From positions 248,001 to 312,000 of the forward strand of contig NZ_LMCF01000012.1 in the NCBI RefSeq assembly GCF_001623075.1: a stretch of DNA of 64,000 nucleotides, in the 5' to 3' direction. Of this stretch, positions 28,675 to 40,763 are shown piece by piece (the stretch's first letter is position 1; each line of letters begins with the position of its first letter). Made by a program: the position numbers and the translations under genes. The notes below the pieces were generated by a model. The model had not been told where the DNA came from, did not search any database, and worked only from the letters and a program-made list of their open reading frames with translations. The DNA is from Pseudovibrio sp. Ad37. GTDB lineage: Bacteria; Pseudomonadota; Alphaproteobacteria; Rhizobiales; Stappiaceae.

Positions 28675-28675
<1 letters not shown>
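27545..28675 (-). CDS. proB: Glutamate 5-kinase ProB with PUA domain
   Basis: 376 aa, first enzyme of proline synthesis. The amino acid kinase domain ([50 protein letters not shown]) covers residues 8-260 and a C-terminal PUA domain 280-365. The start at 28675 overlaps the obgE stop in TAATG, giving translational coupling, and is preferred over a GTG 12 nt upstream. Confidence 0.96.
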
Positions 28676-29772
<1,097 letters not shown>

Positions 29773-29997: not shown

Positions 29998-30543
29998 TCA
30001 GGCCGCAATCGCCTGCATCGATGTCCATCTGTCCCGGGTCAGCGTAACTGTAGTGTAATCCATTTCGAGATCACCACGTGCGCGGTTCTTCTCTTTAGTC
30101 TCGCCAGTTATCTCAAACCCGTTCTTCTGAAGCACATTCAGAGACTTCGGATTAATGGTGAACAGGCCAGTGTTCATCGCAGCCGCATTCAGCCGGTTGA
30201 ACACGTAGTCGCATATCAGGTTGGTCGCTTCACTGGCATAACCTTTACCCCATTGGGATTTAGCCAGCCAGTAACCGAGGTGCGGTGTTGTCGAGACATT
30301 GCGGATGCCGATGACGCCGACAAGGCCTTCGCCATTATCGATCACCCAGTTGATCTCTTCGCTGTGAGATGTCGTGCGGCAATGATCAAACCACCAGTCA
30401 CCATCATCCTTTGTATAAGGATGCGGAACGACAGTCAGCATCTTGCTCACATCGAAATCATTCAAAGACGCATTATGAATATCAAAATCACTCTCGCGAA
30501 AATCGCGTAGGATCAAGCGCTCGGATTGTAACTCCGGGAACAT
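29998..30543 (-). CDS. GNAT acetyltransferase, RimJ/RimL type (array member 1)
   Basis: 181 aa acetyl-CoA-dependent N-acetyltransferase. Acetyl-CoA motif A is WGKGYASEATNLICDYVF and motif B is NPKSLNVLQKNGFE. The opening FPELQSERLILRDF is shared with other array members, and VSKMLTVVPHPYTKDDG is nearly the same as in member 2, marking them as close paralogues. The substrate is unknown; the family includes ribosomal-protein N-terminal acetyltransferases and drug-modifying enzymes. It is separated from the rest of the array by the plus-strand cspA/TetR/OsmC/CPBP block. Confidence 0.9.
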   Translation of the reverse strand: MFPELQSERLILRDFRESDFDIHNASLNDFDVSKMLTVVPHPYTKDDGDWWFDHCRTTSHSEEINWVIDNGEGLVGVIGIRNVSTTPHLGYWLAKSQWGKGYASEATNLICDYVFNRLNAAAMNTGLFTINPKSLNVLQKNGFEITGETKEKNRARGDLEMDYTTVTLTRDRWTSMQAIAA

Positions 30544-31397
30544 GACAATCTCTTCTTATTCTTCTTGGAGCGCTTGGCTTGTTGTCGCTGGCGCTCTTTC
30601 TCTTAAGTACACGAAGATAGCGTCAAACCCGTCGAGCCATGTGCTCGCAACGCGCCGGTGCTATCCAACCCTTGCTTTTGGTTCCTGAGATCTCAAGTGA
30701 ACCCCTGCCACGAGTGCTGGGTACGATCACAAAGGGACGAGGGAGCAAAAGGCTGTTGCCGCAACCTTGCTCAAAGACCCTATCCTGCCATCTGCTGAAA
30801 GTCGCGGAACGCATAAACAGACGCGCCAGCCAGATCAGAGGAGCAGGACCCATCTTCAATTGCCCGATAAACACACACAGATCGGAGAATCAAAGGTGAT
30901 CGACGCCTGCATCTTTATTCACAGGGGAACAAAGTAAGCAGACAACAGCATCTTGGAGGTTTCAAAATCCGAGAGGAACTTCAAAGCTTGGGGGCGGTCA
31001 CTATCTCGGACCACTCCCTATTGCAAGCAGTTAGAGCATATTTCTGGAATATTTTTCACATGCTGAGGAATATTCGCTCAAATATCGACAAATCCGGCAA
31101 TGCAACCGCCAGGAGTCTCCAATATCGAGTTTCCCTCAATTTTATGCGTTTTGTGAAAAGATCAGGGAATAAGTTAGGATTTGACTCAGTAAAAACACAG
31201 GGAATTTAAAAAAAATGGCTCTACACGCCTCAAATGGAAAGCTGGATCTTTACTTATCAGTCAATATGTGGAATGCCGTCTCTACGTTAAGACTATCGAC
31301 CCTGTCTCCTTTTTAGGCGTCAGTGCACTCGATTTCGCCCTGACGCAACCAAAGCTATCTGCATGTCGCAGCGGCACACTAACTAGGAGATATCACG
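30544..31397. other. Long intergenic region with hairpins and the cspA leader
   Basis: 854 bases without a convincing gene. The part 30640-30900 is GC-richer than the rest. It holds a near-palindrome (30680-30703, GGTTC and GAACC arms around TGAGATCTCA) and a stem-loop GAGCAAAAGG/CCTTGCTC (30743-30772), so it may encode a structured RNA. A weak 83-codon frame on the minus strand lacks a ribosome site and family features. From 30900 to 31300 the sequence is AT-rich. The last 90 bases contain a stem GCGTCAG/CTGACGC (31317-31346), probably in the cold-shock gene leader. Confidence 0.4.
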
Positions 31398-31604
31398 ATG
31401 GCTAAAGGCACCGTGAAATGGTTCAACAGCACTAAAGGTTTCGGTTTTATTGCACCTGAAGATGGAAGCAAAGACGTATTTGTTCACATCTCTGCAGTAG
31501 AGCGCTCCGGTCTGTCTACTCTGGCTGATGGCCAGGACGTAACTTACGAATTGGAAGCTGGTCGTGATGGCCGTCAGAGCGCTGTAAACCTCGAAACCGT
31601 ATAA
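31398..31604 (+). CDS. cspA: Cold-shock protein CspA family
   Basis: 68 aa single cold-shock domain. RNP1 KGFGFI and RNP2 VFVHIS are intact. It is a nucleic-acid chaperone that melts RNA structure and antiterminates. AGGAG lies 8 nt before the ATG, a hairpin-bearing leader precedes it and a strong terminator follows. It is a stand-alone gene between GNAT member 1 and the TetR regulator. Confidence 0.96.
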
Positions 31605-31622
31605 TTCGAGCTGTTCAGTGAA

Positions 31623-31652
31623 AAAGAGCGCAGCAATGCGCTCTTTTTTTTG
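31623..31652 (+). terminator. Rho-independent terminator after cspA
   Basis: The 10-bp stem AAAGAGCGCA/TGCGCTCTTT with a GCAA tetraloop is followed by a run of T. Confidence 0.93.
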
Positions 31653-31851
31653 TCTGGAATTTGGCCCAGACATCAATAAACCTACAATGAGATAGCCATC
31701 AGGCTTCCATTCAGCCAAAATGCTCCTCTACAGAATACCATCCTCCCCAAATCCGGCTCCCAACATCATGCTTCGCCGTGATGCCAGCTGATGCCTCCAC
31801 ATTCCATTCCCTTGCAATCTTGTTTCTCCTCACCAAACTCACTAGAGCTTA

Positions 31852-31872
31852 GTGTAAGATACGGTATCGTAC
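31852..31872. promoter_or_regulatory. Likely TetR operator, site 1 (own promoter)
   Basis: A 21-bp site, 24 bp before the TetR ATG, contains the dyad GATAC-G-GTATC. Aligned without gaps it agrees at 17 of 21 positions (counted by eye) with site 2 before the OsmC gene; both begin GTGTA and end TCGTAC. Confidence 0.65.
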
Positions 31873-31896
31873 CCACGTGAGAGACGGAAAACCTGC

Positions 31897-32529
31897 ATGG
31901 AATCAGAGAAAAAGGTATCGCGCGGCGAAAAGCGGAAAAATGAGCTTTTAGAAATTGCAGCTGATGCGATCATCGAACTTGGCTATGCCAACACCTCGAT
32001 GGATGAGATCGTCAGACGAGCCCGCGCCTCCAAGACCACAGTCTACAGACACTTCAAAAACAAAGAAGCAATGTTGGCAGAGATTGTCAGCAACCTGTCT
32101 GAAGGGCCTGTCCTCTCCATAAAACCTCTCGACTCAAACGAAGATGGTGGCTCCCGTCAGGAGCTTGAAGAGATTCTTTTTGTCTTTGGTAAGGCTGTCT
32201 TGACCCTCATCTATGATGACAGAACTCTGGGCCTTTGGCGTATGTTGATAGGTGAGGGCAGTCGCGCTCCTCATATTACCAAATCATTTTTCCAGCTTGG
32301 CCCCAAACGAGCAACCTCCAGCATTGCCCAACAGCTTCAGCTTGCGAGCGACCTTGGCATCGTTGCCATTGAACATCCTGAAAACGCAGCGGCCATATTC
32401 ATGGGCATGTTGAGAGAGGACACTCATCTCGCTCTTCTGCTAGGTGTTCAATCCGCGCCGGACGAGCAGGAAATTTCAGGCCATGTTCGCCAATGCGTGC
32501 GTGATTTTATGAAGGCTTATGGGGTCTGA
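31897..32529 (+). CDS. TetR/AcrR family regulator next to OsmC gene
   Basis: 210 aa. The HTH is at residues 15-62 (NTSMDEIVRRARASKTTVYRHFKNKEAM), with an AcrR-type C-terminal domain (AAIFMGMLREDTHLALLLG). Near-identical 21-bp sites lie just before its own ATG and before the OsmC-like gene downstream, so it probably represses both. The inducer is unknown; OsmC targets suggest organic peroxide or a reactive electrophile. Confidence 0.92.
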   Translation: MESEKKVSRGEKRKNELLEIAADAIIELGYANTSMDEIVRRARASKTTVYRHFKNKEAMLAEIVSNLSEGPVLSIKPLDSNEDGGSRQELEEILFVFGKAVLTLIYDDRTLGLWRMLIGEGSRAPHITKSFFQLGPKRATSSIAQQLQLASDLGIVAIEHPENAAAIFMGMLREDTHLALLLGVQSAPDEQEISGHVRQCVRDFMKAYGV

Positions 32530-32589
32530 CACCAACCAGCGTGGAACCGTAGAAAACAGCCATGCTTGACGAAAGTGATTTTTGTCTGC

Positions 32590-32618
32590 TAAGTGTACGG
32601 TACAGTGTCGTACACTTA
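32590..32618. promoter_or_regulatory. Likely TetR operator, site 2 (OsmC promoter)
   Basis: Perfect 10-bp arms TAAGTGTACG and CGTACACTTA with a 9-bp spacer, ending 12 bp before the OsmC ATG. The inner 21 bp matches site 1 at 31852-31872. Confidence 0.72.
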
Positions 32619-32629
32619 CGGAGGTAGAG

Positions 32630-33217
32630 ATGCTTAACAATAACACTGTGACACATCCCATCGTGACCCGGGCAGCAGCCATGCCAACACCCCAGCACAT
32701 CAGCCTAAACAAAATCAAGAAGTCAAAGGAAGGCATGGAGCTTGAGGTTGATTTCATCGCAGAGTTGACAGGCGATGGCTTGGTTAAGACCGGCGTGGTC
32801 CAACCCAACGTTCCCGGTTTTGGTGCGTTCGAAGTTCTCTGCGACGAGGGCTCATCCATTGGCGGCACGGATACAGCTCCCGCACCATTGTCTTACCTGG
32901 CCGCGGGTATCGGCTTCTGCCTGCTCACGCATGTGCATGGGTTGGCTCAGTCCCGGAAGCTGAACATCTCCTCCATCAAGCTGGAGCAGAAAATGAAGTT
33001 CCAGTCCAGAATTCCGGGAATGACCGCTGAAGAAGGCTCGGACATGCTTGGTGTTTCAAAAGGCGTCGAGACAGTCATCATCATCGAATCGCAAGAAGAC
33101 CCATCTCTGATTGCCTCTTTGGTGGAGGCGAGTGAGAAAGCCTGCATGGCGCTTCAAACCGTCGTAAATGCAGTCCCGGCATCGACCACCATCATCAACA
33201 ACGGCCAGAAACTCTGA
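32630..33217 (+). CDS. OsmC-like hydroperoxide-handling protein
   Basis: 195 aa from the ATG at 32630, which has GGAGGT directly upstream. It is an OsmC/Ohr-fold protein; the two cysteines expected to form the redox pair are Cys97 (GIGFCLLTHVHG) and Cys172 (EKACMALQTV). The family reduces organic hydroperoxides using dithiol cofactors. The N-terminal 25 residues are extra relative to the minimal domain. It is probably controlled by the upstream TetR regulator through the site at 32590-32618. Confidence 0.88.
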   Translation: MLNNNTVTHPIVTRAAAMPTPQHISLNKIKKSKEGMELEVDFIAELTGDGLVKTGVVQPNVPGFGAFEVLCDEGSSIGGTDTAPAPLSYLAAGIGFCLLTHVHGLAQSRKLNISSIKLEQKMKFQSRIPGMTAEEGSDMLGVSKGVETVIIIESQEDPSLIASLVEASEKACMALQTVVNAVPASTTIINNGQKL

Positions 33218-33326
33218 GCCAGAATTGATGCGTAGGGCAGCCTCTCAAGCAAAATCGTTTGAGATGTTGCCCTCCTCTCCATTTCTCCTTCTCAACAATG
33301 TCTCCGAGAAGGACGGAGGAAATACA

Positions 33327-34052
33327 ATGACATCTTCTTCCCAACACAACTACTTCCCCACCACCTTTCGCAACCAGCTCATGGCAACAATCGTCTGGGC
33401 TCAGGTCTTTGTTCTCTATTGCATTGGCCTATTGGTTTTCACCGAACAGAACACAAGTCAGATTTTCTGGGCAGATCCGTTCATCAAGATCGTGCCGATT
33501 TACGTCTCTACCTGGCTCATCATTTTCACCTCACTGCTCTTGGGCTGGTTTTGCTTTAACAAACTCGGCTGGGCAGGCTTGATAAAGCATACGCCCGGTT
33601 TGCAGATCGTGAGCGGTGTAAGCACAGCAATCATCATCACATGCATTATCTGGGCGTTTTTCGGGAGTGAACTGCCTGACTTTGTCCCGGCAGAAGAAAG
33701 CTCACGTCCAGGCTATCTCTTCGGCATGGTGGCTGGTTACGGCGAAGAACTCGTCTTCCGCATGTTATTGAGTGGGCTGGTCTTCTTCGGAATGTTCAAA
33801 CTGCTGTCAGGCGTTGAGTACAGGTATCGCGTGTTCTGGTCTGCTGGCACTGCAATCCTCATCGCAGCACTAGCTTTTGTCTTCCTTCATGAGCTTGGAG
33901 AACTGGATAGCATCTTATTGTGGAACTTGATCGCCACACGCATTCTCGTTCCCGGCATCATAATGGGGAGCCTGTTTTTTCTGGTCGGTCCGGGCTTTCT
34001 CATCTTCATGCACAGCACCATGCACATCATGATACCGCTGCTATTCGACTGA
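33327..34052 (+). CDS. CPBP/Abi-like intramembrane protease family protein
   Basis: 241 aa from the ATG at 33327 with GGAGGA upstream; six to seven membrane helices. The segment GYGEELVFRMLLSG carries the EE-x-x-x-R-type motif of CPBP (type II CAAX-prenyl-endopeptidase-like) proteins, and HELGE and FMHSTMHIMIP supply the downstream histidines. In bacteria these often give bacteriocin self-immunity or process membrane peptides; no bacteriocin-like peptide was seen nearby. It is about 110 bp after the OsmC gene and probably co-transcribed. Confidence 0.7.
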   Translation: MTSSSQHNYFPTTFRNQLMATIVWAQVFVLYCIGLLVFTEQNTSQIFWADPFIKIVPIYVSTWLIIFTSLLLGWFCFNKLGWAGLIKHTPGLQIVSGVSTAIIITCIIWAFFGSELPDFVPAEESSRPGYLFGMVAGYGEELVFRMLLSGLVFFGMFKLLSGVEYRYRVFWSAGTAILIAALAFVFLHELGELDSILLWNLIATRILVPGIIMGSLFFLVGPGFLIFMHSTMHIMIPLLFD

Positions 34053-34102
34053 TCCCAAAACTTGTCGCGCGCACCCATCGGCACGCGACAAGCAATTCAT
34101 CT

Positions 34103-34654
34103 TCAAACCGTCACCGCCCGCATGGCTTCCCATAAATGGCGGGTGAGCTCCACGTTGATAAGAGTGACTTCTTCTTCTCCGCGAGCGCGACTTTTTTCTG
34201 GCTCCGAGCCGATCGTCTGGAAACCGTTCTTCGCCAGCACATTCAGGGACCCGTCATTTTCTTCAAAGGCGCCGGAAGTCACTTTGCTCACACCCAGTTC
34301 CTCAAAGCAGTAATTGACCACGGCCTCAGTTGCCTCGCTCATATAGCCTTTGCCCCAGAACGGTTGACCCAGCCAATAACCAATGCGCGGGAAGCCATCT
34401 TCTGGGATGCGTATTCCAATGACGCCTGAGAACCCATGTTCGGATTCAATAACCCAGTTCGTCTCTTTGCTTAGCGGTGTCTCCTTGATGTGGTTCAACC
34501 ACCACTCCCCATCCGCTTTTGTGTATGGGTGGGGCACCACAGTCAGCATCTTGCTGACTTCAAAATTGCTGATGTACTCGCAGATTGGCTCCAGATCACC
34601 CTGCTGAAACTGGCGGAGTGTCAGGCGGTTTGTTTTGAGTTCAGGAAACATCAT
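34103..34654 (-). CDS. GNAT acetyltransferase, RimJ/RimL type (array member 2)
   Basis: 183 aa. Motif A is WGKGYMSEATEAVVNYCF and motif B NDGSLNVLAKNGFQ. The block VSKMLTVVPHPYTKADGEWW is almost shared with member 1, so the two are sister paralogues now 3.5 kb apart. Two adjacent ATGs are possible starts (MMFPEL). It is the last gene of the eight-gene run and lies 70 bp after member 3. The substrate is unknown. Confidence 0.9.
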   Translation of the reverse strand: MMFPELKTNRLTLRQFQQGDLEPICEYISNFEVSKMLTVVPHPYTKADGEWWLNHIKETPLSKETNWVIESEHGFSGVIGIRIPEDGFPRIGYWLGQPFWGKGYMSEATEAVVNYCFEELGVSKVTSGAFEENDGSLNVLAKNGFQTIGSEPEKSRARGEEEVTLINVELTRHLWEAMRAVTV

Positions 34655-34724
34655 TAATCCAACTTGTTGCGTTTGGAGTGCTTAGTCGGTGTGCCGCAAA
34701 CACTCTGTAATTCCATAATGGTCG

Positions 34725-35270
34725 TTAGGCAGGGGCATGCCGTGCTGCCCACTGTTCCCGCGTTAAACTGAGAGAAATATTCGGCAGCGTCTCTTCTGGC
34801 CGGGAGCGCGGAGTTGAAAAGCCTCTTCCAACCTCCTGAAAACCCAGTTTGGTCAGAACGCGCAGGCTTCCGGGGTTCTCTTCAAGCGCAGAGGTATAAA
34901 TCGTGGGCAGGCCAAGTGTCTCAAAACCATATGCAGTAACGGCCTGAGCAGCCTCACTCATATAGCCTTTGCCCCACAGATGCTCAGCAAGCCAATACCC
35001 AAGAATTGGCTTGCCGCTTTGAAGCTTCATCAGAGTGATCGCGCCGGAAAAGCCAGCAGGCCCCTCAATCACCCAGGCGATTTTCTCTGAGAGTGGAGTG
35101 GTCAGGCAGTAGTTGATCCACCATTCTCCGTCTGCCTTGGAATAAGGGTAAGGCACTTCAGAGAGTGTTTTACTAACTGCGAAATTGTCGGTGAACTTGC
35201 AAAGTGGCTCCAGATCAGAATGCCTGAACTGGCGCAGTATCAGCCTGTCTGTTTTTAGGTCAGGAAACAT
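34725..35270 (-). CDS. GNAT acetyltransferase, RimJ/RimL type (array member 3)
   Basis: 181 aa. It opens FPDLKTDRLILRQF. Motif A is WGKGYMSEAAQAVTAYGF and motif B NPGSLRVLTKLGFQ. The substrate-side loop VSKTLSEVPYPYSKADGEWW links it to members 1 and 2. The gap to member 4 is 9 bp, so it should be on the same transcript. Confidence 0.9.
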   Translation of the reverse strand: MFPDLKTDRLILRQFRHSDLEPLCKFTDNFAVSKTLSEVPYPYSKADGEWWINYCLTTPLSEKIAWVIEGPAGFSGAITLMKLQSGKPILGYWLAEHLWGKGYMSEAAQAVTAYGFETLGLPTIYTSALEENPGSLRVLTKLGFQEVGRGFSTPRSRPEETLPNISLSLTREQWAARHAPA

Positions 35271-35279
35271 CTTGAATAC

Positions 35280-35846
35280 TCACGAATTCATGTCTGAATT
35301 AGTCAGTCGAAGAAAGTCATTTCGGGTTATCTGAAGCTGGGTCTCATCAAATTCCACATTGTCCCGCGCACGGCAGGCGTGTTTAGCCTCACCAGTAATC
35401 TTGAAACCCATCTTGGTCAGCACCCGCATGGAGGCCGGGTTCTCCTTGAACACGCCGGTCCGCACCACATGCAGCGCCCGCGCTTCAAACAGATAATCAA
35501 GAACAACACGCAAAGCCTCACTCATCAGCCCTTTGCCCCAATGCTCGCGCCCAAGCCAGTAGCCAACGCTCGCAGCTCCATGCAACTCCTTCGCTTTAAA
35601 ACCACCACAAAACTGCCCATCAAGCTCAATTGCCCAGGTCACATTCTCAGCTGTATTGTTGGCAAGCGCCTGCTCAATATAATCCCGCCCATCCGCTTCC
35701 AAAAACGGATGCGGTTGACTGCTCAGCGACTTGGAGACCTCAAAATCCCCCAAGTACGCACAAAGCCTCTCCAAGTCCTCAGATCGCATCTCGCGCAATA
35801 CTAGTCGCTCGCTGCGTAGAACAGGAAAGGTGCTTTGGGTTGTCAT
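35280..35846 (-). CDS. GNAT acetyltransferase, RimJ/RimL type (array member 4)
   Basis: 188 aa from the ATG at 35846, with AAGG 9 nt upstream; a TTG at 35855 that overlaps the member 5 stop is an alternative. Motif A is WGKGLMSEALRVVLDYLF and motif B NPASMRVLTKMGFK. It keeps the HPFLEADGRDYIEQA loop seen in varied form through the array. Confidence 0.9.
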   Translation of the reverse strand: MTTQSTFPVLRSERLVLREMRSEDLERLCAYLGDFEVSKSLSSQPHPFLEADGRDYIEQALANNTAENVTWAIELDGQFCGGFKAKELHGAASVGYWLGREHWGKGLMSEALRVVLDYLFEARALHVVRTGVFKENPASMRVLTKMGFKITGEAKHACRARDNVEFDETQLQITRNDFLRLTNSDMNS

Positions 35847-35851
35847 GGCGC

Positions 35852-36400
35852 TCAACCTTCCGCTTCTGCTAAGTCCACAAAATCGGCTTTGGGCAATGCA
35901 AGCCGGAGATGTGGAACCATGATATCACCGCGTCCTTTAGAGGGGATAGTTTCTTCGCCAACTTTGCTGAAGCCCATCTTATCCAACAAATGAGAGGAGG
36001 CAGGATTGTCGGCAAACACACCGGCCCCAAAGTTCGTAACAAAGTGCTGCTCAAATCCGAAACGCAGAACTGTACGCAGAGCTTCGCTCATGTAGCCACG
36101 CCCCCAATAAGGCTCACCCATCCAATAACCGGTCCAGCCAGTACCATCCTCAAACTTTGCCCAGATGCAACCGACAAGGCCAGTCCCATCGTCAATGGCC
36201 CATAACACAACACTGGCAGGATCACTGGTCTTGCTGCTATGTATGTAGAACCTGCCAGTCTCTTCTGTAAACGGATGCGGCATGCCCGAAAGCATGCTCG
36301 CAATCGCGTAAGAGTTCGCCAGCTGGACAAGGCGATCCAGATCGCCGTCTTCAAGCATGCGCAATCGAAGACGGTCTGTTTTCAGCTCTGGAAAAGCCAT
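35852..36400 (-). CDS. GNAT acetyltransferase, RimJ/RimL type (array member 5)
   Basis: 182 aa. Motif A is WGRGYMSEALRTVLRFGF and motif B NPASSHLLDKMGFS. It opens FPELKTDRLRLRML. The gap to member 6 is 1 bp, giving close coupling. An unusual pair of serines replaces the R/V positions of motif B, but the core Asn and Gly-Phe remain. Confidence 0.9.
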   Translation of the reverse strand: MAFPELKTDRLRLRMLEDGDLDRLVQLANSYAIASMLSGMPHPFTEETGRFYIHSSKTSDPASVVLWAIDDGTGLVGCIWAKFEDGTGWTGYWMGEPYWGRGYMSEALRTVLRFGFEQHFVTNFGAGVFADNPASSHLLDKMGFSKVGEETIPSKGRGDIMVPHLRLALPKADFVDLAEAEG

Positions 36401-36401
36401 C

Positions 36402-36962
36402 CTATCTTATCCCCGCCACGGCAAGGTGTGGTTGCTCTGCGGACTGTGCCAGCTTGAGTTCGAAATTTTGGGTCTCAATTTCGTCAGCCTCTCTGGAAGC
36501 GCAGGAATGCGTGCAGACAGAGGTTGGAACGAAGCCGTTCTTCATAAGAACGCGGAATGACGCAGGATTCTCCAAAAAAACGCACGCATCAACGTTCTCA
36601 ACGCAACGCTCATTTTGTAGATAGTTTACAACGGCTTGCACGGCTTCACTCATATAACCCCGCCGCCAGTAGTACTTTCCAAGCGCATAGCCCAAAGAAG
36701 CAGATTTGCCGATCCGGTGTGCACCAATGGACCCGATGAAGCCCGTACCATTATCAATCGCCCAAACCACATCCGAATTCAGATCATTAGAATGACTACA
36801 AGTGATAAACTCATGCGCCCACTCATTAGTGATCGGATGCGGAAAGCTGGCAGTCATCCGCGCCACATCAAAATCAGAAAACAGGAACCGCAGCCGAGGA
36901 TAATCATCCGGCTGAAGTGCTCTTAAAATCAAACGGTTGGTTTGTAATTCCGGAAAGATCAT
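36402..36962 (-). CDS. GNAT acetyltransferase, RimJ/RimL type (array member 6)
   Basis: 186 aa. It opens IFPELQTNRLILRALQ. Motif A reads YYWRRGYMSEAVQAVVNYLQ, so the first glycine of the usual GKG is replaced by arginine. Motif B NPASFRVLMKNGFV is normal. The ATG overlaps the member 7 stop (ATGA). Several cysteines in the C-terminal third (CVENVDACVF, VCTHSCAS) are unusual for the array. Confidence 0.88.
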   Translation of the reverse strand: MIFPELQTNRLILRALQPDDYPRLRFLFSDFDVARMTASFPHPITNEWAHEFITCSHSNDLNSDVVWAIDNGTGFIGSIGAHRIGKSASLGYALGKYYWRRGYMSEAVQAVVNYLQNERCVENVDACVFLENPASFRVLMKNGFVPTSVCTHSCASREADEIETQNFELKLAQSAEQPHLAVAGIR

Positions 36963-37525
36963 TGCGCTGCCTCCTGCGCTCTGGCTTGTTGTGCACTGAT
37001 GAAATCAAGCGGGGATATGAGGAACTCTTCTGTCGGATAATTGCCCGCGAGGCGTGCACGACTTCGTCCCTCATTCTGTCCGGTATGAACAAACCCAAGT
37101 TTTCGGATCAGTGCCTGAGATCCCGCATTGTCGCTAAAGGCATCGGCAAAGATGGAAGGCAACTCACGTTCCAGCAGCAAGTAACGGAGAACCTCACTAA
37201 CTGCCTCATACATAATGCCTTTTTTCCAATGCTCTTCTGCAAGCCAAAAGGCGAGTTCAGGTTTTCTGGAAAGTTGGCCAGCACCAACGCCACCAACCAC
37301 TTCCCCCTGCAGCTCAACGGCCCAGTTCACTCCATGGCCAAGGTCTCTGGGCATAAACCTTTGCAGAAAGACCTCAGCATCCGCTTTGGTATAAGGATAC
37401 GGAGCACTCGCCAGCATTCGCGTAACATTCTGATTTTGCAGCAGTTTAAGAATGCGAGGCGCATCCGTCTCTCTCCACTCCCGAAGTGTCAGACTGGCTG
37501 TTCTCAAACGAGGAAAAGTGGTCAT
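36959..37525 (-). CDS. GNAT acetyltransferase (array member 7, recent duplicate of member 8)
   Basis: 188 aa, aligning without gaps to member 8 with about three quarters identical residues (by-eye count, 48 differences). Motif A is altered to EHWKKGIMYEAVSEVLRYLL, losing the first glycine of GKG and the Y-x-S-E spacing; motif B is DNAGSQALIRKLGF. The divergence is concentrated in residues 39-66 and 84-92, the likely substrate side. ATGA overlaps at both ends. Confidence 0.88.
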   Translation of the reverse strand: MTTFPRLRTASLTLREWRETDAPRILKLLQNQNVTRMLASAPYPYTKADAEVFLQRFMPRDLGHGVNWAVELQGEVVGGVGAGQLSRKPELAFWLAEEHWKKGIMYEAVSEVLRYLLLERELPSIFADAFSDNAGSQALIRKLGFVHTGQNEGRSRARLAGNYPTEEFLISPLDFISAQQARAQEAAQ

Positions 37526-38088
37526 TGTGCTGCCTCCTGCACTCTGAGCTGTTGTGCTGCGATGAAATCAAGCGGGGATATGGCGAACTCTTCTGTAGGA
37601 TAATCCCCGGCAAGGCGGGCCATGCTGCTCCCCATTCCTTGCCCGGTATGAACAAAGCCAAGCTTACGCATCAGGGCTTGAGACCCTTTGTTATCGCTGA
37701 ATGCATCTACAACGATTTTGGGGTACTCGCGTTCAAGAAGAAGGTAGCGCAAAGCTTCGCTAGCGGCCTCAAACATAATGCCTTTTTGCCAATGTTCTTC
37801 AGCAAGCCACCAACCCATGTCTGGTGTTTTATCAAGCGGTCCGGCTCCAATACCACCAACCACTTCTCCTTTAAGCTCGACTGCCCAATTCAAAACTTCA
37901 TTCAAATTGTGAGGCATAGCCTTATGCAAAAAGGCCTGGGCATCTGCCTTTGTAAAGGGATGTGGCTTGGAGGTTAGCATGCGTGTAATATTCTGATTTT
38001 GAAAGAGTTTTAGCGCGCGGGGTGCATCCGTTTCTCGCCATTCCCGCAGTGTCAGGCTGGTCGTTCTCAAACGAGGAAAGGTGGTCAT
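37522..38088 (-). CDS. GNAT acetyltransferase (array member 8, recent duplicate of member 7)
   Basis: 188 aa, the sister copy of member 7. Identical stretches include TLREWRETDAPR, RKLGFVHTGQ and ISPLDFI. Motif A is EHWQKGIMFEAASEALRYLL. Its start overlaps the member 9 stop and its stop overlaps the member 7 start by 4 nt, so the duplication kept the coupled layout. Confidence 0.88.
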   Translation of the reverse strand: MTTFPRLRTTSLTLREWRETDAPRALKLFQNQNITRMLTSKPHPFTKADAQAFLHKAMPHNLNEVLNWAVELKGEVVGGIGAGPLDKTPDMGWWLAEEHWQKGIMFEAASEALRYLLLEREYPKIVVDAFSDNKGSQALMRKLGFVHTGQGMGSSMARLAGDYPTEEFAISPLDFIAAQQLRVQEAAQ

Positions 38089-38675
38089 AGCGCTGCTCCC
38101 ATCATCACATGCGCATCACCATGCAACGCCTCAAACCGATCCCGCGGCAGATGCATGATGATATTCTCAACGTCTTGTTGCAAAGGTTTAGAGTACCGAA
38201 GGCAAACACCAGCAGGCTCAAAGCCTAGCTTTTTCAATACCTTCTGAGAGGAATAGTTCGTCGCAAACACACGAGCGGCGAAGGTGTCACATGCAGCGCG
38301 CGCAAAGCCCCAATGCAGCGCAGCAACACATGCTTCAGTGATATACCCTTGGCCATGTGCGGCTTCGGAAAGCCAATAGCCAATGGTTGGCAGTTCCGGG
38401 AACTCTTTGAGATCACCGGGTTTTTGGACTTCAACGCCGCCTATAAGCTGTCCGTTACAGTCGATGGCAAACGGAAATGAGTCCGTTTTGGCATTTGCAA
38501 GGCACGCCTGTTCTATAAAGGCTTCGGCTTCCATCATGGTTGGAGGCCACGTTAACCCGGTGAGCCAGCGTGCTATTTCATAGTTAGAAGGTCCGATCTC
38601 CCAAAAGCGAGGGAGATCGTCAGATTGGAATGGGCGCAGTTGCAGCCTTTGGGTATCTATAGTTGTGGTGAGCAT
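38085..38675 (-). CDS. GNAT acetyltransferase, RimJ/RimL type (array member 9)
   Basis: 196 aa, a more divergent member. It opens TIDTQRLQLRPFQSDDLPRF. Motif A is AAHGQGYITEACVAALHWGF, with the classic G-Q-G-Y, and motif B is NYSSQKVLKKLGFE. An insertion near residues 80-90 (QKPGDLKEFPELP) is not seen in the others. It is the first gene of the coupled run; a 234-bp gap before it may hold the run's promoter. Confidence 0.9.
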   Translation of the reverse strand: MLTTTIDTQRLQLRPFQSDDLPRFWEIGPSNYEIARWLTGLTWPPTMMEAEAFIEQACLANAKTDSFPFAIDCNGQLIGGVEVQKPGDLKEFPELPTIGYWLSEAAHGQGYITEACVAALHWGFARAACDTFAARVFATNYSSQKVLKKLGFEPAGVCLRYSKPLQQDVENIIMHLPRDRFEALHGDAHVMMGAAL

Positions 38676-38869
38676 TGTAAAAGGCCTTGTAAATCAAACT
38701 CATGTTTCTCTAATCGTTCGTTGGAGTAGGTAAGTGAGGGTAAAACGCAGCATGGCCTCGATGACCTGGATTGCAGACAGAGCGACTGCATCAGGATCAG
38801 GTAAAAGCCTGCTGGTTTTGTGTGGTTGAGGGTAAGCCGTCACAGCCAAACAACAATCACGCTGCCGAA

Positions 38870-38896
38870 AGCAGGTTGCTGTCATTGCAACCTGCT
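38870..38896 (-). terminator. Hairpin after array member 10
   Basis: A perfect 10-bp stem AGCAGGTTGC/GCAACCTGCT with a 7-nt loop, 13 bp after the stop of member 10 and followed by TTTC on the minus strand. It probably ends that transcript ahead of member 9. Confidence 0.55.
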
Positions 38897-38909
38897 GATC
38901 TGGCATCAC

Positions 38910-39515
38910 TTAACCAGCAGAGCCCCATCGCGTATTCGCGATCCATTGGCTGCGGGTCAGTGTAAAGCGTGTGGCATCCACCACGGCCATAGCGCCGAGA
39001 GAATGCAGCTTTGTCGTTCCGTCCTGCTTAAAGCCGCACTTGGTCAGCACGCGGTGCGAGGCAGGATTGCTCACGCGACAAGAAGCGGAGAGCTCCTTAA
39101 CACCATTAGCAAACGCGAATTCGATAACAGACTGAACAGCTTCTGTCGCATATCCCTGGTTCCAGAATGGCTCGCCCACCCAATAACCCAGGTGCACAGC
39201 ACCAAAGTCTTCGGCAAGCGGGTTGAAACCGATAGCGCCAATAATACGGCCAGTGTTCTTCATGCGGATCGCGAACGTCGCCTGAGATGGCAACTGCACA
39301 TCACACCGTTTCACGAGCGCTTTAGCGTCTTCATACGTGAAGGGATGAGGCATGTTCGTCAGTTTCTCAGCGATCCGACGGTTGTTGGCTAAAAACAGGA
39401 TGTCAGCCAAATCATCCTTGCGCGCTCGGTCGATGACAAGACGCGCGGTGTCCTGCGGCGACCCGGCCGCAATGCAACTGCTTTCTTCTGGGATTTCTTC
39501 GTATTCAACTACCAT
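38910..39515 (-). CDS. GNAT acetyltransferase, RimJ/RimL type (array member 10)
   Basis: 201 aa with a 25-residue N-terminal extension before ARLVIDRARKDDLADI. Motif A is WNQGYATEAVQSVIEFAF and motif B NPASHRVLTKCGFK. It is the member nearest rpmA and separate from the coupled run, with its own hairpin downstream. It may represent the ancestral single GNAT gene that sits beside rpmA in related genomes; this is inference. Confidence 0.9.
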   Translation of the reverse strand: MVVEYEEIPEESSCIAAGSPQDTARLVIDRARKDDLADILFLANNRRIAEKLTNMPHPFTYEDAKALVKRCDVQLPSQATFAIRMKNTGRIIGAIGFNPLAEDFGAVHLGYWVGEPFWNQGYATEAVQSVIEFAFANGVKELSASCRVSNPASHRVLTKCGFKQDGTTKLHSLGAMAVVDATRFTLTRSQWIANTRWGSAG

Positions 39516-39671: not shown

Positions 39672-39941
39672 TTACTCGGCGGCGAGTGCCACCGGCATCA
39701 CATTAATAAATGTTCGGCCATTGCGTTTTTCTTCGAATGCAACTTTGCCTTCGACGGTCGCAAAAATGGTATGGTCTTTACCAATGCCAACACCTGCGCC
39801 TGGGTGCCACTTAGTGCCACGCTGACGTGCAATGATGTTGCCAGGAATCACGGCTTCGCCGCCGAACTTCTTGATACCAAGGCGACGACCAGCTGAGTCG
39901 CGACCGTTGCGGGATGAACCGCCAGCTTTTTTATGAGCCAT
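39672..39941 (-). CDS. rpmA: 50S ribosomal protein L27
   Basis: 89 aa, bL27. The N-terminus [18 protein letters not shown] reaches the peptidyl transferase centre, and there is no cleaved prepeptide as in Firmicutes. [17 protein letters not shown] is the conserved core. It is 46 bp downstream of rplU on the same transcript. Confidence 0.98.
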
Positions 39942-39987: not shown

Positions 39988-40563
39988 TTACTTCGCTGCG
40001 AGTTCCTTAGCCTGTGCAACCCAGTTATCACGTTCGAAGCGGCCTTTAGTGCCAGTTTCTTCTTCAACGCGGGCGATGTCTTCAGCAGAAAGAACTGCGA
40101 TTTGTGCGTAGGTAGAGATACCTGCAGCATTCAGCTTTTTCTCAATTGCTGGGCCAAGACCCTGCAATTTTTTCAGATCGTCGGAACCTTCAGCAGCTGG
40201 TGCAGCGGCAGCTTTCTTAGGAGCGGCGGCTTTTTTAGCTGGCTTAGCGCCACTGGTCAGGATGTCGGTGATTTTCACAGTAGTGAAAGCCTGACGATGA
40301 CCATTACGACGACGGGAGTTCTGACGACGACGTTTTTTGAAGATGATGATCTTACGATCACGACCCTGCTCAACAACCTCAGCTACAACAGAAGCGCCTT
40401 CAACGGTTGGTGCACCAATAGTGGTTTCAGCATCTGAACCAACCATGAGAACTTCGTCAAAAGTTACTGTTTCACCAGCTTCGGCAGAAACTTTTTCGAT
40501 CTTCAGAAGATCGTCAGCAGCAACAGTGTACTGTTTACCGCCTGTTTTGATGACTGCGAACAT
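39988..40563 (-). CDS. rplU: 50S ribosomal protein L21 with C-terminal helix-hairpin-helix tail
   Basis: 191 aa from the ATG at 40563 ([14 protein letters not shown]). Residues 1-103 are standard bL21, which binds 23S rRNA. There follows an Ala/Lys/Pro-rich linker (about 108-130) and a helix-hairpin-helix domain ([20 protein letters not shown] then [18 protein letters not shown]). The extended form recurs in alphaproteobacteria; the role of the tail is unknown. A strong promoter lies about 200 bp upstream, leaving a structured leader. Confidence 0.95.
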
Positions 40564-40763
40564 GCGCATGTCCTTCTTATCTAAGCGCACCCTTTGGCGT
40601 CGCAGCAAACTGCGAACTTTGTCGACCGTTTCCTTTATGCTCTAGGAACGTCCCCTTTCGGGGAGATCGACCGCAAACTCTGGAAAAAACCAGAAGGCGG
40701 TTTCGATGTCTTGCCTCGGACAGCGCGAAAACACGGGTTTCCCCGCAATTTATGAGCTGCTGG

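Follow-up and report, generated by a model that had tools for sequence, protein, structure and literature searches.

Growth of a ten-gene acetyltransferase array between obgE and rpmA in Pseudovibrio, apparently by repeated duplication of one gene

The stretch of DNA analysed here (the window) comprises 64,000 nucleotides of Pseudovibrio sp. Ad37 (contig NZ_LMCF01000012.1, positions 248,001 to 312,000) and contains, between obgE and the ribosomal protein genes rpmA and rplU, ten uninterrupted open reading frames (ORFs) on the minus strand that encode GCN5-related N-acetyltransferases (GNATs) of 181–201 amino acids. Where did so many related genes at one site come from, and what are they kept for? 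As far as comparison of the sequences tells, the origin is shown to lie in tandem duplication of one gene, the ancestor of eight of the ten, followed by maintenance, loss, decay and recombination. The ten genes, W1 to W10, are counted from the obgE side, and they and their borders are as follows.

28675..29766, minus strand: obgE, downstream border; the name passes the NCBIfam cut-off; anchor for the genome comparisons
29998..30543, minus strand: GNAT W1 (PF13302, tree), the member of the expanded clade nearest obgE
34103..34654, minus strand: GNAT W2 (PF13302, tree, AlphaFold model)
34725..35270, minus strand: GNAT W3 (PF13302, tree), missing in the close relative G006
35280..35855, minus strand: GNAT W4 (PF13302, tree)
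35852..36400, minus strand: GNAT W5 (PF13302, tree)
36402..36962, minus strand: GNAT W6 (PF13302, tree)
36959..37525, minus strand: GNAT W7 (PF13302, tree), 74% identical to W8, the top pair
37522..38088, minus strand: GNAT W8 (PF13302, tree)
38085..38675, minus strand: GNAT W9 (PF13302, tree), the family's middle gene
38910..39515, minus strand: GNAT W10 (PF13302, tree, AlphaFold model), the family's rpmA-side gene
39672..39941, minus strand: rpmA (L27), upstream border; the name passes the NCBIfam cut-off
39988..40608, minus strand: rplU (L21); the name passes the NCBIfam cut-off

An initial annotation, made from the letters of the DNA, had placed ten GNAT genes at these positions, each with an acetyl-CoA motif. 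Both statements are borne out: all ten ORFs match PF13302 (Acetyltransf_3) with 80.7–113.4 bits against a gathering cut-off of 25.4, and the glycine of the acetyl-CoA loop as well as N133 and S136 (W2 numbering) of the N-x-x-S motif are kept in 10/10 proteins. The array is not a chance accumulation, because at E ≤ 1e-20 this genome has 19 PF13302 matches, whereas 60 further genomes of the order, including one of the same family, have 0–10 each.

The origin of the copies was read from a tree in which the genus contributes 122 of 165 proteins and 16 of the 46 loci of other genera of the family contribute the remaining 43; eight fragments of fewer than 140 aligned residues were left out. W1–W8 and their relatives form a genus-only clade (91 of the 165 rows, support 99/94) that is present in the best tree, and eight of the ten genes therefore descend from one ancestral gene. 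W10 clusters with the family's rpmA-side genes (32 rows, 100/100) and W9 with its middle genes (27 rows, 97/86); by this grouping the two are older family genes, each the orthologue of a gene that occurs throughout the family. The lineage-specific expansion proposed by the initial annotation thus holds for W1–W8 and does not extend to W9 and W10. Neighbouring genes are the most alike (identity of W7/W8 74%, W2/W3 52%, W1/W2 49%, also W1/W3 42%; all other pairs 22–38%), as expected from tandem duplication. The parent of W1–W8 would be the obgE-side gene by position and the middle gene by the best tree, which unites the W1–W8 clade with the W9 lineage (118 rows, 99/94). A tree constrained to unite W1–W8 with the obgE-side proteins of other genera (15 rows) is 5.5 log units worse and is not rejected (approximately unbiased test, p-AU 0.33). 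Long branches, mainly of basal genus members, make the placement of these members unsure. A foreign origin was rejected on account of a guanine-plus-cytosine content of 0.50–0.53, like that of the surroundings, and by the position of the copies within family genes. Carriage on plasmids was likewise rejected: queried with W2, 190 plasmid records matched, all with less than 60% identity (35% in the best of the 12 listed).

How far the array departs from its relatives depends on their distance. ObgE anchored 80 named alphaproteobacterial records, with rplU upstream within reach in 65 and out of reach in 15. The 65 loci contain no GNAT (18 loci), one (43), two (3) or three (1), as detected with a profile of the ten proteins at E ≤ 1e-5, which remote GNATs could escape. 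The single rpmA–obgE GNAT of Rhizobiales, Rhodobacterales, Caulobacterales and Hyphomonadales occupies the same site and is the same kind of protein, and we regard it as probably the counterpart of W10. In the family's other genera (46 genomes), four genomes have one GNAT, ten have two, 25 have three and seven have four. The expectation of one or two GNATs in relatives is therefore roughly correct for far relatives but not for the family's other genera, whose genomes most often have three. In another family of the order, G066 has four GNATs between obgE and rpmA (L182:6910-8964) and G111 has two; both genomes were chosen for neighbouring PF13302 matches and are a non-random sample. These counts indicate that smaller expansions occur elsewhere too, that of G066 being probably independent. 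Compared with the single-gene loci, where the 65 named records reach at most three GNATs, and with the four of G066, the window has ten.

Within the genus (16 genomes, full-length copies having at least 140 aligned residues), this genome with its ten copies belongs to a group of ten expanded genomes, which further includes G006, G056 and G030 with 11 copies each, G045 and G023 with ten, G039 and G054 with nine, and G048 and G018 with seven, the array of G018 being interrupted by contig ends. The remaining six genomes have 6, 6, 4, 4, 4 and 3 copies. Most orthogroups are common to the ten closest genomes, so that much of the expansion predates the species. Genus members outside the ten have two to five copies of the W1–W8 clade, which places the beginning of the growth before the split of the genus, while the W7/W8 pair and two extra copies, a and b, both absent here, are restricted to the ten. 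Taken together, a family-wide rpmA–obgE cluster of mostly three genes grew in the genus via repeated tandem duplication of one gene, and long separate maintenance, losses, decay and recombination followed, with W9 and W10 as the older members. Seven to 11 full-length paralogues at one site, beside relatives with three and relatives with one, offer a natural series for studying how acetyltransferase specificity originates and is selected.

Orthologues are under purifying selection. The ratio of nonsynonymous to synonymous divergence (dN/dS, Nei–Gojobori, window genes against up to nine genomes) lies at 0.02–0.22 in W1–W10, and the extra copies a and b give 0.27–0.30 and 0.15, respectively. Two window pairs and two orthologue pairs of the side copies have saturated dS and gave no ratio. 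W7 against W8 gives 0.15. These values and the region counts below exclude unclear W7/W8 copies (G023, G045, G054), some of the extra copies and the additional W9 of G045. Each copy is apparently kept working. The second W9-like gene of G045 (L094:9774-10951) has 60% identity to W9.

Despite this conservation of single copies, the content of the array changes between close genomes. G006, whose ObgE is 100% identical to that of the window (obgE dS 0.02), has copies a and b and is without W3; W8 is missing in G039 and G018, and G056, G048, G054, G023 and G027 contain broken or fragmentary copies at this locus. Over four consecutive blocks of 100 columns each (L089:5400-5900), copy a of G006 shares 97–99% identity with its counterpart in G056, compared with 86% in the preceding block and 61–79% in the remaining nine or more blocks of the flanks. 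Its dS to G056 and G030 is 0.11–0.13, whereas the obgE dS of the window to those genomes is 0.56–0.62. Judged from this contrast, recombination between species is the likeliest explanation of copy a. Uneven dS between the window and G006, from 0.02 (W9, W10 and obgE) to 0.20–0.21 (W8 and W4), is likewise in line with recombination inside the array.

The site is not the only one to have grown. An unlinked second run of PF13302 genes lies between rho and mnmE (L150:8040-10946 in this genome, G000:C7; both flanking names pass NCBIfam cut-offs) and comprises four full-length copies and one broken copy. The ten expanded genomes have two to eight GNAT places there, some of them broken, and the other six have one each; the largest array is that of G045 with eight places (L155:6584-11243), and that of G018 is interrupted by a contig end. 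In 13 of the 46 genomes of other genera, the rho–mnmE GNATs number one in 11 and none in two. One member of the run matched PA3944 in the PDB with E 5e-40. With DNA of this second array, 12 plasmid records were found, and the ten listed cover 4–6% of the query, some of them in rho. That a PA3944-like second locus grew in these same ten genomes suggests a shared cause; because the ten genomes look like one subclade (ObgE identity 89–100%, compared with 81–88% in the other six), the parallel growth of both arrays may be one historical event.

What do the proteins do? AlphaFold models of W2 (predicted local distance difference test score, pLDDT, 97.6) and W10 (91.4) have ordinary GNAT folds, with near-tied structure matches to 3fbu, PA3944, bleomycin N-acetyltransferase, RimL, SpeG and MccE. 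The serine of the RimL/MccE type (S136 of W2) is present in all ten; its equivalents are S141 of RimL, S553 of MccE and S148 of PA3944, according to excerpts of PMC4964394 and PMC8072286. The former excerpt proposes E160 of RimL and E572 of MccE as general base; the latter describes S148 of PA3944 as essential, states that this enzyme has no equivalent of MccE E572 and reports that it acetylates polymyxins in vitro. By gapless offset, a glutamate at the spacing of RimL and MccE, 19 residues after the serine, is found in 0/10 window proteins, W1 and W2 having one at position +17. We infer that the W proteins are one-domain acetyl-CoA N-acyltransferases of the RimJ/RimL/PA3944 type that use the N-x-x-S serine and would transfer acetyl groups to primary amines.

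Identity to the closest known enzymes is low. Identity to RimL (1s7l) is 17% for W2 and 19% for W10, with no counterpart of E160 by gapless offset; furthermore, RimL and RimJ are known as ribosomal-protein N-alpha-acetyltransferases, and here ten genes share one site. MccE, the microcin C self-immunity enzyme, gives W10 its best sequence match in the PDB (E 2.2e-9) and has the same serine, yet is only 17–19% identical to W2 and W10, and its E572 is likewise without counterpart by gapless offset. The PA3944-type GNATs share the serine with all ten proteins but are only 20–21% identical to W2 and W10. For the ten proteins, the NCBIfam cut-offs for RimL (best 35.3 of 184 bits, W10) and RimJ (33.4 of 190, W4) were not reached, nor were those of the TlmB, BlmB and AAC(6') models (18.5–26.3 bits against 140–625). 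In PADLOC-DB, used to look for known anti-phage defence proteins, 0/8 proteins (five of the ten GNATs and three proteins encoded between W1 and W2, described below) matched at E ≤ 0.01.

We favour, with a probability of about 0.4, a detoxification-like repertoire against environment-facing amines or peptides over the modification of ribosomal proteins. W2–W9 would be made together from one message, and the copies would acetylate different primary amines of environment-facing compounds, the step to which we commit; candidate targets are peptidic or aminoacyl-nucleotide antibiotics and polyamine-like or amino-acid-derived toxins. The repertoire would acquire, lose and swap members as exposure shifts, and W10 would retain an older conserved role. 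Outside compounds are suggested as targets because content changes fast, copies are exchanged between species and a PA3944-like array has grown in parallel; among the solved structures near the models are RimL and also acetyltransferases for bleomycin, microcin C and polymyxin. Should the targets prove to be antibiotics or peptides of a host, the array would offer untried inactivating enzymes.

One observation weighs against a simple radiation of specificities. Although 33 positions are conserved within and differ between the orthogroups W1–W8, the ratio of paralogue to orthologue divergence is 4.06 on the acceptor side, 4.09 in the acetyl-CoA core and 3.88 in the C-terminal part, with acceptor-side and core ranges assigned from the secondary structure of the W2 model and general knowledge. 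A radiation of the acceptor site was therefore dropped. In W7 against W8, one pair only, dN is 0.28–0.30 in residues 31–90 and 0.15–0.17 in residues 91–150. The panel of enzymes with different targets proposed by the initial annotation consequently agrees with the deep divergence of the paralogues and the conservation of each copy, but not with an acceptor side that is not extra diversified; because this excess is missing, the argument for different substrates is drawn from depth of divergence and per-copy conservation. The ribosomal neighbourhood, for its part, points to translation.

This neighbourhood would agree with a protein-modifying panel, in which the copies would act like RimJ and RimL on ribosomal and translation proteins, acetylating their N-termini or lysines. 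The site is conserved, with one GNAT between rpmA and obgE in 43 of the 65 named loci, the second array also lies beside core genes, the weak NCBIfam matches include RimJ and RimL, and structures of both fit well. We nevertheless consider this panel unlikely, as the scores reach at most 35.3 bits against cut-offs of 184–190, all ten proteins lack a glutamate at the offset of RimL E160, counted without gaps (that of W1 and W2 being two residues off), and copies that decay and vary between genomes with identical ObgE would be odd for ribosome maturation. Slightly less likely still, in our estimate, are metabolic acetyltransferases that would act on amino acids, polyamines or amino sugars of the cell itself, multiplied for dosage or mild specialisation: SpeG structures tie with the others and NCBIfam gives weak matches to SpeG and PseH, but apart from W7/W8 the paralogues, with 22–52% identity, differ too much for a dosage effect, and content changes fast. 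A mostly neutral birth and death, in which unequal recombination makes tandem copies that linger unneeded, would account for the broken copies here and at rho–mnmE of this genome and for close genomes that differ in one neighbouring gene (W3 absent in G006, W8 in G039), but is very unlikely given a dN/dS far below 1 in all orthogroups with a ratio, many at dS > 1, and in W7/W8.

The detoxification-like repertoire can be extended to both sites, although we hold this extension for distinctly improbable: rpmA–obgE and rho–mnmE would be two nests in one clade in which acetyltransferases of the Ser type increase in number and pass from species to species, providing a heritable repertoire (14 full-length genes here) against amine or peptide natural products of the habitat or the hosts. 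Such a two-nest repertoire would be the chemical-defence counterpart of variable immunity gene clusters.

To our knowledge, the substrates of most bacterial RimJ/RimL-type GNATs are not known. In the open-access papers searched, judged by titles and the beginnings of abstracts, none on this array was found. According to an excerpt of PMC5112248, the amikacin-resistance genes recovered from sponge DNA include a GNAT gene, which nothing ties to this array. New are the array's size, its origin from one gene, its recombination and the paired second array; the enzymes themselves belong to a known family.

The array is ordered as W10, W9–W2, an insert and W1. The tight central run described by the initial annotation is found at six of the seven W2–W9 junctions, which have a 4-nt overlap (one of them only with a TTG start of W4) or a gap of 1–9 bp, but not between W3 and W2, which are 70 bp apart. 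W10, the next gene upstream of W9, is separated from it by 234 bp and from rpmA, further upstream, by 156 bp. Predicted promoters and terminators (7 and 13 sites) are no more numerous than in shuffled sequence (8.8 and 14.1) and so do not delimit transcription units.

W1 and W2 are 3.6 kb apart, and the spacer, an insert absent from the initial annotation, holds genes on the other strand.

31398..31604, plus strand: cold-shock protein gene (PF00313, Pfam)
31897..32529, plus strand: TetR-type regulator of the inserted cassette
32582..33217, plus strand: OsmC-like protein of the inserted cassette
33168..34052, plus strand: probable membrane protein of the cassette, assigned by eye; the true start is probably further downstream

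The membrane protein has no Pfam match, and the label CPBP is a guess from motifs. In the stretches compared, the TetR/OsmC/membrane-protein cassette occurs in none of the other six genus genomes or 46 family loci and in seven of the ten expanded genomes, being absent from G045, G048 and G054. The cold-shock gene is likewise found in 0/6 and 0/46 and is present in all ten expanded genomes.

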